Shown here piece after piece: positions 9,683-14,410 of a DNA stretch of 40,654 nucleotides. The notes beneath the pieces are model-generated. The model did not search any database. It saw nothing but the letters and a program-made list of their open reading frames with translations, and had not been told where the DNA came from. Each line of letters starts with the position of its first letter. Position 1 is the first letter of the stretch. Origin of the DNA: an uncultured Bacteroidota bacterium (lineage in GTDB: Bacteria; Bacteroidota; Bacteroidia; Flavobacteriales_D; Sanyastnellaceae); the NCBI GenBank assembly GCA_903932685.1, contig CAIZGX010000074.1, positions 1 to 40,654 of the forward strand. The letters are read 5' to 3'. A program made the translations under genes and the position numbers.

Positions 9683-9691
9683 CTTTGTTAG

Positions 9692-9765
9692 CGGTCGGGA
9701 CGGGACTCGAACCCGCGACCCCGTGCGTGACAGGCACGTATTCTAACCAACTGAACTACCCGACC
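9692..9765 (-). tRNA. tRNA-Asp (GTC anticodon)
   Basis: Read on the minus strand, the 74-nt gene folds as a cloverleaf. The acceptor GGTCGGG pairs with CCCGACC, with discriminator G. The D arm is GTTCAGTTGGTTAGAAT and the T arm is CGGGTTCGAGTCCCG. The anticodon stem-loop carries CTGTCAC, giving anticodon GTC (Asp). The CCA end is not encoded. Confidence 0.97.
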
Positions 9766-12226: not shown

Positions 12227-14410
12227 GTGTCGAAACCACTGCTCATAATACCTCCGCTCACTCAACTGAATACTCCGTATCCAGCCACCGCTTATTTAAC
12301 CGGATTCTTGAAACAGCAAGGTTTTGATTCAAGACAAAAGGACTTGGGATTAGACATGGTGTTGGAAGTGTTTTCGAAAAAGGGATTCGAACTATTATTC
12401 AATGCCATTGAGAATTCCGACTTCAACTTAAACAACCAACTCGATGCCTTAGTCCAGAACAGAAAGGCCTACGAGAATACTGTAGATGCTGTCATCTCCT
12501 TCCTTCAAAATAAAAATTACACACTCGGATACCGGATTGCTTCAGGCGCTTATTTACCCGAAGGTTCTCGATTTCAACAAATAAAAGACCTCGAATGGTT
12601 CTTCGGAAACATTGGTGTGCAAGACAAAGCGCGATACAAGTGCACCATGTACCTCGAAGACATTTCAGATCTCATTCAAGCTACCGTGGGTCCGCATTTC
12701 GGTTTTTCGAAATACGCAGAACGCATCTCGCGAACCGCCGTTTCCTTCAGTCCCATTCTTGAAGAGCTGAACAAGCCAAACAATTATCTCGATGATATTT
12801 TGGTTGAAAGGGTGAAGACTTACTTTCAAGATGAAGTTCCTTCAATGGTTGGTTTCACTGTTCCTTTTGGAGGAAATTTATATGGCGCTTTCAAAGCTGG
12901 ACAATGGATCAAAACTCATTATCCGGAAGTGAAAATCGCAATGGGTGGGGGGTACCCGAATACAGAACTGCGCGAACTCGCTGACCCGCGCGTTTTCGAC
13001 TTCGTCGATTACATTACCCTCGACGATGGGGAAGGGCCATTCCTAGCGCTGTTGAAGCATCTCGAAGATGCGGAAGTTTACTCGGAATTGAAAAGAACGT
13101 TCCGCAGAAATTCAAACTATGAAGTTGAATTCATTGACAATAAAGTGGGCGGAGATTTCCTTCACGCCCAAAAGCCCGCTCCAAGTTATACGGGTCTTCG
13201 TTTCAACGAATACCTTTCTGTGATAGACATGCCCAATCGCATGCATCGCTTGTGGAACGACGGGCGTTGGAATAAGATGACCGTGGCTCACGGATGTTAT
13301 TGGAAGAAATGCAGCTTCTGCGACATAACCCTTGATTACATTGGAAGATACGACCAAGCGAGCGCAACGCATTTGGTTGATCAGATGGAAGCGCTCATTG
13401 CGGAGACCGGTGAAACCGGATTTCACTTCGTAGATGAAGCCGCGCCTCCAGCAGCATTGCGCGATTTAGCCATAGAGATTCTTCGTAGAGGCTTGCAAGT
13501 CTCTTGGTGGACCAACATACGTTTTGAAAAAACATTCTCTCCCGATCTCTGTAAAATTCTAGCAGCCTCCGGATGCATTGCCGTAACTGGCGGTTTAGAA
13601 GTGGCGAGCCCAAGAATTTTAGAGTTGATCGACAAAGGAATTTCCATTGATCAAGTAGCCAAGGTTTGCAAAGGTTTTCGCGATGCTGGAATTTTAGTCC
13701 ATGCCTACTTAATGTTCGGTTTCCCTACGCAAACCGAACAAGAAACCATCGATTCGCTTGAGGTAGTTCGACAATTATTCGAAAACCAATTGCTTCATTC
13801 CGGACATTGGCACCAGTTCGCCATGACCGTTCATAGCCCTGTAGGGAAAGACCCTGAGAAATTTGGAGTTGTTCGGACAGGCCCTGTTTTCCAGGGTTTC
13901 GCGAACAATGACTTGTATCACGAAGATCCGAAAGGGGCCAATCACGAACAATATTCAGAAGGATTGAAGAAGGCTTTGTACAACTACATGCACGGTATAG
14001 GCTTCGAATTTCCATTGAAGAAGTTCTTCAAATTCCCCGTAGTAAATCCTTTGGTTCCAAGAACCATGATTGAAAAAGCCGTGAAGAAACTTCCAGAAGA
14101 TGAAGTGGAATTGAAAGGCATGGTGCTATTCCTTCATCATACATCTTTGAAATCTTTGAAGAAGATTGGCCCGAATAAAGAACTGCTCTTCGTGCATAAA
14201 TCGGGATACCAGAAAATAGATTTTCCTTCAGCAGTAGCCGATTTCCTCATAGAAAATGAAACGAAGTTGAATCTATTTCAAGAAGAAAAAATAAACTACC
14301 AAGAGGTTCTCACGAACTTTTCCAACCAACTCAAATGCACGCCTGAAGAGCTAGTGAAATTCAGTTGGTGGAAACAAATGCGTGAATACGTTTGGATGGT
14401 CCGCGTTTAA
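12227..14410 (+). CDS. Radical SAM protein with B12-binding-like N-terminal domain
   Basis: 727 residues. The start is a GTG at 12227, and no other in-frame start lies between it and the terminator 16 nt upstream. The N-terminus ([17 protein letters not shown]) and a Rossmann-like region at about 205-275 ([29 protein letters not shown]) match cobalamin-binding-domain radical SAM proteins, although no DxHxxG motif is seen. The radical SAM core at about 345-560 has [11 protein letters not shown], with Cys357, Cys362 and Cys365 as probable 4Fe-4S ligands. The spacing is CX4CX2C rather than the usual CX3CX2C. Later motifs include [32 protein letters not shown] and [14 protein letters not shown]. 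The substrate is unknown and no peptide precursor or biosynthetic partner sits nearby. Its stop overlaps the converging helicase gene by 4 nt. Confidence 0.88.

Follow-up and report, generated by a model that had tools for sequence, protein, structure and literature searches.

A conserved B12-type radical SAM enzyme of Bacteroidota with a CX4CX2C cluster motif and, by model, an RRE-like C-terminal domain

The locus

The window, by which we mean the entire stretch of 40,654 nucleotides from an uncultured Bacteroidota bacterium that was analyzed here, carries a gene for a 727-residue radical SAM protein, flanked by the gene for a 734-aa protein without a Pfam match and by a gene for a DEAD-box helicase. 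A tRNA-Asp(gtc) lies just upstream of the gene for the 734-aa protein, at 9691-9765 on the minus strand. The radical SAM gene and the parts of its product are as follows.

12227..14410, plus strand: coding sequence, with stop codon, for the 727-aa B12-type radical SAM protein; starts with GTG (open reading frame and domains)
12227..12346, plus strand: cobalamin-type Rossmann domain, part 1, spanning residues 1-40; its loop PPxTQxNTPYP falls in columns that are invariant over 77 rows (alignment; model strands 5-8 and 36-39)
12347..12838, plus strand: helical insertion splitting the B12-type domain (about residues 41-204; model secondary structure, with borders of our own reading)
12839..13066, plus strand: B12-type domain, part 2 (about residues 205-280); the loops PFxGN, GGGxxNTELR and DDGE are conserved (Pfam B12-binding at 194-275, alignment, model)
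13268..13996, plus strand: radical SAM core (about residues 348-590; Pfam at 353-512, model, fold matches)
13295..13321, plus strand: cluster motif CYWKKCSFC, Cys357/362/365, CX4CX2C (translation of the open reading frame, relatives)
13421..13450, plus strand: near-invariant family signature of 10 residues, 399-408 (alignments of relatives)
14042..14407, plus strand: C-terminal domain (residues 606-727), with an RRE/PqqD-like winged-helix fold by model; absent from many relatives

The site of the start codon agrees with that in relatives of the protein. Pfam Radical_SAM matches residues 353-512 with 50.2 bits against a cut-off of 29.5, and this match, together with the three-cysteine motif, places the protein in the radical SAM superfamily.

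The cluster motif and the spread of the family

An earlier note on this DNA had singled the gene out for its cluster motif, read as CYWKKCSFC at Cys357, Cys362 and Cys365 and therefore as CX4CX2C, with a first gap one residue longer than that of CX3CX2C, and the translation of the open reading frame confirms this reading. The remaining cysteines of the protein lie only at positions 139, 442, 450, 481 and 704, so that no canonical CX3CX2C motif, a possibility that the note had raised, is hidden elsewhere. The three cluster cysteines are invariant in an alignment of 77 rows, and the spacing recurs wherever we looked for it. A search of the nearest 60 genomes gave a match at E 1e-3 in 43, the weakest of which belong to other radical SAM families, and the window and 24 relatives from that search all have CX4CX2C (25/25 loci). 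In a scan of named genomes at least 588 of at least 595 candidate stretches encode a relative, where one gene may yield more than one stretch, and the best 80 of these relatives all read CYWxxC[ST]FC (80/80). The family is widespread: in a sample of the phylum this protein occurs in 68 of 392 genomes at E 1e-100, and the loci fetched from 20 of these 68 carry CX4CX2C without exception (20/20). The same holds for four copies from plasmid-labeled records, of which two, in Ideonella and Vitreoscilla, are betaproteobacterial. These sets partly overlap, L012 and L030 being identical and the pairs L074/L139 and L094/L137 nearly so. Given 25/25, 80/80, 20/20 and 4/4 copies, the motif is not a product of chance.

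The same consistency bears on what the motif can tell us. PMC4340712 documents Cx4Cx2C in two cobalamin-dependent methyltransferases, GenD1 and GenK, and in Sis14. Characterized enzymes with this spacing, which the earlier note had listed among its grounds for refutation, therefore exist in the wider B12-type group, although we found none within the family studied here. In an alignment at E 0.16, queuine lyase has this cysteine spacing as well. The idea that the expanded motif marks specialized chemistry therefore falls: being family-wide, and published in characterized enzymes, the spacing is no evidence of new chemistry. As an exotic feature in its own right CX4CX2C is ruled out, since it is present in every member that we read.

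There is usually one locus per genome, with two in G457; in the phylum sample and in a second sample, of the class, two or three candidates were scored per genome. Within the genus of the window the enzyme is found in 8 of 9 genomes. The four plasmid records annotate the gene merely as 'radical SAM protein'. In family f17 of the phylum sample the enzyme occurs in all 25 genomes of genus g45 against a single one of the 20 genomes from its other genera, a useful contrast for finding a substrate. Four loci (L026, L028, L040, L066) come from metagenome-assembled genomes whose titles (Chryseobacterium gleum, Bifidobacterium breve) clash with their positions in the tree, and which look misnamed.

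Family placement

No NCBIfam model reaches its cut-off on the 727-aa protein. The top match is TIGR04479, the PhpK P-methyltransferases, with 83.9 bits over residues 196-549 against a cut-off of 600, and the second is TIGR03975, rSAM_ocin_1, with 80.8 bits over residues 193-553 against a cut-off of 281.85; lesser matches, likewise below threshold, are to the HpnJ, ladderane-type and BchE families. The same two models come first, in either order, in all six other members scanned, where rSAM_ocin_1 scores 70.8-94.7 bits and so stays below its cut-off. Both of these best-matching families are named as methyltransferases, and this is our main ground for proposing methyl transfer. We found no naming of this radical SAM family in the titles and abstract openings of the literature searched, and the protein has no match in the anti-phage library. 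It is, in short, a conserved, uncharacterized B12-type radical SAM enzyme.

The cobalamin-type domain and overall fold

An AlphaFold2 model built on 77 sequences (mean pLDDT 91.1, pTM 0.91) has OxsB as its best solved fold match, with Z 25.1 over 400 residues at 3.1 A, followed by TsrM (Z 21.8, 415 residues), TokK (20.6), AprD4 (20.2, 407 residues), CysS (19.5) and MgmA (18.7); the next enzyme below these B12-type matches is RimO, at Z 15.8. Over residues 1-606 the model matches OxsB, TsrM, TokK and CysS, and we thus assign a B12-type domain to the protein. At the level of sequence, a profile search of PDB sequences gave no match at E 0.1, and a search with the single sequence matched TsrM at 2.9e-4. 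Pfam B12-binding matches residues 194-275 with 22.8 bits, under its cut-off of 32.1; a partial match of this kind would be explained by an insertion of about 160 residues, a set of helices between the strand at 36-39 and the strand at 207-211, that splits the domain in two. The strand-end loops on either side of the insertion (PPxTQxNTPYP, PFxGN, GGGxxNTELR, DDGE) are invariant in the 77 rows, as would be expected of a working cofactor site. AprD4 has the same fold as the model and is not known to use cobalamin, so that the fold does not by itself prove cobalamin use by the enzyme of the window.

The DxHxxG motif occurs nowhere in the protein, and none of the 77 aligned members, the window included, has it within its first 330 residues. 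The earlier note's picture of a B12-binding-like N-terminal domain that lacks this motif is thus borne out by the Pfam match, the model and the alignment. Its absence is ordinary within the B12-type radical SAM group: PMC8992657 describes TsrM as binding cobalamin base-off and His-off, and PMC8828468 describes Mmp10 as having neither DXHXXG nor SXL. Two B12-binding domains score above the Pfam cut-off in the genome of the window, one of them in a methylmalonyl-CoA mutase encoded in the window, which argues that B12 enzymes are in use in this organism.

The C-terminal domain

What first drew attention to this gene is for the most part ordinary. More interesting is a separate C-terminal domain which, like the helical insertion in the B12 domain, the earlier note overlooked. 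The fold alignments with solved enzymes reach only to about residue 606 and leave this tail uncovered. Aligned separately, residues 606-727 give 77 rows with a mean column identity of 29%, and folded alone the tail is predicted with a mean pLDDT of 92.7 as four strands, three main helices together with short ones, and a last strand.

Compared by VIA-align with 998 chains, the tail finds its best 12 of 50 rows exclusively among RiPP-pathway proteins, at Z 4.7-6.6: ThcOx (6.6 and 6.3), TbtB (6.4), the PbtF RRE (5.9), MibB (5.6), TbiB1 (5.6), three heterocyclase entries (5.6, 5.2, 5.1), TruD (5.3), TigE (4.8) and PqqD (4.7), which amount to nine different proteins, supposing that the three 'heterocyclase' titles denote a single one. 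Row 13 follows at Z 4.0 over 49 residues, and the two wider rows after it, which include the JmjC protein NO66, reach 3.8. The entry title says 'RRE' for PbtF only; the aligned regions of the other RiPP-pathway matches we take to be their RRE/PqqD regions. All of these scores fall under 8, a range in which, as the tool itself warns, Z can reflect a common arrangement. Foldseek places TbtB first at E 0.038. Of the 22 Pfam families (E up to 0.12) and the 20 NCBIfam families (E up to 0.15) matched by any of the 77 members, none is of the PqqD or RRE kind, and an hhalign comparison of the tail with five PqqD proteins was negative, at a probability of 0.9%.

In PMC12710340 the RRE is strictly defined as a winged helix of N-to-C order bbb-aaa, fold searches for RREs are said to have a high false-positive rate, and RREs fused to enzymes without RiPP precedent are reported. 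In light of the low Z scores, the Foldseek E of 0.038, the lack of any sequence-level match, the strict definition and the warning about false positives, we call the tail RRE-like and do not call it an RRE: as modeled, it resembles one. The link to RiPP maturation that the earlier note had entertained thus gains weak support from the best fold matches of the tail, but no precursor and no sequence-level RRE match came to light.

Other proteins touch on this subject. A distant relative in Rhizobium (L111) has GCQYAQCLFC, which is also CX4CX2C, and its tail matches PqqD proteins by hhalign at E 1.9e-4 in a single comparison, with a probability of 48%. A second distant relative, on Sinorhizobium meliloti plasmid pAK76 (L110), has 24.5% identity and the motif CYWNRCTFCD; its gene adjoins those for a flavoprotein and a 2OG-Fe(II) oxygenase, in a neighborhood that looks biosynthetic. 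PqqD-family genes are present in the window's genus at L116-L119, the one at L119 lying, by eye, beside HPr-kinase-like and signal-peptidase-like genes; the window's own genome has a sub-threshold PqqD match only.

The tail is far from universal. In the class sample it is absent in 12 of 57 positive genomes, from 7 families, where a stop closes the match no later than residue 650, and in all nine positive genomes of family f35 in the phylum sample the protein ends by residue 645. Open frames of 621-643 residues encode the enzyme in G046, G049 and G052, and three of the four plasmid-record copies have no tail. A tree of 101 members contains 8 that are tail-less and needs three changes, two of them forced by well supported branches, in a set that shares the bias of the 80 best-scoring loci toward tailed members. 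Since the tail is missing in many lineages, the enzyme can do without it.

Neighborhood and the search for a partner

The 734-aa protein and the helicase stand beside the gene in the window's genus only (among loci L001-L031). When genes of at least 70 aa within six places of the enzyme were grouped over the 80 loci and part of the window, no widely shared neighbor emerged, the largest group besides the enzyme itself covering 12 loci; 15 of 20 further loci (without L129-L133) and the four plasmid records yielded no additional group. In a survey of the 80 loci and the window, 5768 small open reading frames (20-130 aa) lying no more than 3 kb from the gene were compared by blastp. It gave 119 groups with at least three loci, all confined to one genus or family except VF530 (4 of 80 loci), and it found no precursor peptide gene near the enzyme, where a very divergent one could escape blastp. 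The earlier note's statement that neither a precursor nor a biosynthetic cluster adjoins the gene therefore stands over both surveys.

VF530 (PF09905), a family of small proteins of about 75 aa, was the one recurrent candidate. Across several lineages that are not closely related, it adjoins the enzyme: at L055 (10211-10441), L068 (10546-10764) and L096 (5224-5442), in the betaproteobacterial Ideonella locus L106 (11946-12203) and at G353:C23:46778-46966, and it lies within 5 kb in L074/G330 and L134/G121. In the phylum sample it occurs in 58 of 68 enzyme-positive versus 69 of 324 enzyme-negative genomes, counts that are unadjusted for kinship. Because the lead was found post hoc, we tested it on genomes not seen before: in the class sample VF530 is present in 23 of 34 unseen positive genomes, and linkage to the enzyme within 30 kb on one contig was found in 0 of these 23, many of whose contigs are short. 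It is also absent from the window's genus (0 of 9 genomes). We reject VF530 as a general partner or substrate on both counts, and the description of this enzyme as having no known partner holds.

The only other pattern is confined to one family. Among eight loci scanned with Rfam, five have a cobalamin riboswitch a few genes upstream of the enzyme, with other genes between; all five are from Hymenobacteraceae, and the three without one are from Reichenbachiella, Spirosoma and Chitinophaga. The riboswitch loci also hold genes for a B12-receptor-like TonB protein and for a DUF5074 protein (identified by Pfam/NCBIfam on three, with homologues in the other two), and the DUF5074 and TonB groups of the neighbor survey are those of Hymenobacteraceae. 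This arrangement hints at a B12 link within that one family. The window itself contains no cobalamin riboswitch, and such riboswitches occur in 375 of the 392 genomes of the phylum sample, so that their co-occurrence with the enzyme across the phylum is uninformative.

Separately, a locus that recurs in the window's order (L112-L115) holds between two and four radical SAM genes whose motifs are canonically spaced (CPYTCKWC, CPYKCNWC, CPFTCSFC and others). By eye, these are interleaved with methyltransferase-like genes, and a carbamoyltransferase-like gene and small membrane proteins lie alongside in L112 and L113.

Discussion

Overall, we prefer, at a probability of roughly 0.4, to read the protein as a radical SAM enzyme of the cobalamin type that most likely methylates, or else alters by some other radical reaction, an unactivated carbon in a peptide or protein whose gene lies elsewhere. 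The motif, its conservation, the predicted fold and the lack of widely shared neighbors are what the analysis shows; cobalamin use, methyl transfer, a peptide or protein substrate and RRE function are all steps that we infer. We had put these odds at 0.45 and lowered them to 0.40 because the tail is not universal. Consider how such an enzyme would work. Cys357, Cys362 and Cys365 would hold a [4Fe-4S] cluster, and this cluster would cleave SAM to give the 5'-deoxyadenosyl radical. The methyl group would be carried by cobalamin, held base-off/His-off in the N-terminal Rossmann domain that the insertion splits. The RRE-like C-terminal winged helix, in those members that have it, might then grip the substrate by a short sequence. 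The gene for the substrate would lie elsewhere in the genome, which would account for the lack of a precursor or a cluster beside the enzyme gene.

A nearly equal rival is a B12-dependent radical SAM enzyme that methylates, cyclizes or rearranges a small molecule, be it a lipid, a tetrapyrrole, a cofactor or a secondary metabolite; the tail would then be a winged helix with a structural or regulatory role and no part in peptide binding. OxsB, TokK, CysS and AprD4 among the top fold matches, and the sub-threshold profile matches to the HpnJ, ladderane-type and BchE families, point in this direction, as does the absence of the tail from many lineages, and a gene outside any cluster that is usually present once per genome would suit housekeeping metabolism. 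The best-scoring profiles, however, are those of PhpK and of RiPP C-methyltransferases, the fold matches of the tail point to RRE domains, and no metabolic gene travels widely with the enzyme. We think it quite improbable that the protein keeps a B12-type fold and has lost the use of cobalamin, like AprD4: the close match to AprD4 and the low Pfam score would fit such a loss, but the strand-end loops of the domain have stayed invariant over 77 rows, true cobalamin radical SAM enzymes also do without DxHxxG (PMC8828468, PMC8992657), and riboswitch-linked uptake genes lie nearby in Hymenobacteraceae. An ordinary RiPP maturase with an overlooked adjacent precursor, which the RRE-like tail and the kinship with rSAM_ocin_1 would suit, is largely refuted, since the only small-frame group to cross family lines in the blastp survey within 3 kb, VF530, is missing from the window's genus and no larger neighbor is conserved.

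Returning to an enzyme of peptides or proteins, a bolder version can be built by analogy with the methylation of methyl-coenzyme M reductase in methanogens. The family would then be a widespread, cluster-free group of B12 radical SAM enzymes, often with a fused peptide-recognition domain, that makes an undescribed post-translational modification on a Bacteroidota peptide or conserved protein encoded elsewhere. We regard this version as unlikely.

If the tail is a working RRE, then RRE-guided radical chemistry would take place outside gene clusters, where it is invisible to cluster-based mining, and the family would offer a specific target for deletion and, in the tail, a bait. If the tail is not an RRE, the case shows that CX4CX2C alone is no sign of new chemistry.

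Comparison with known systems

Among solved enzymes, OxsB and TsrM have the overall fold in common with the protein over residues 1-606, at 15-19% identity, and their alignments end before the tail. GenD1 and GenK are of the same cobalamin-dependent radical SAM type with the same CX4CX2C spacing, according to PMC4340712, and are C-methyltransferases of the gentamicin cluster that act on aminoglycosides; the gene of the window, by contrast, stands without a cluster and encodes an extra C-terminal domain. The PhpK P-methyltransferases (TIGR04479) are the best profile match, far below their cut-off, and rSAM_ocin_1 (TIGR03975), the C-methyltransferases of RiPP maturation, is the second best, likewise far below, and differs in that the gene of the window has no adjacent precursor.

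The RRE/PqqD domains of ThcOx, TbtB, PbtF, MibB, TruD, TbiB1, TigE and PqqD share with the tail, as modeled, an order of strands followed by three main helices, whereas the tail has an extra strand at each end, Z scores of at most 6.6, no sequence-level match and no known precursor. Mmp10 and MgmA are methanogen enzymes of other sequence families, of which MgmA matches the model in fold at Z 18.7 and Mmp10, with another B12 domain, matches it over the radical SAM core only (Z 10.2, 207 residues). Both nonetheless belong to the B12 radical SAM enzymes, and methyl-coenzyme M reductase, which they methylate, provides the precedent for a large protein as substrate.
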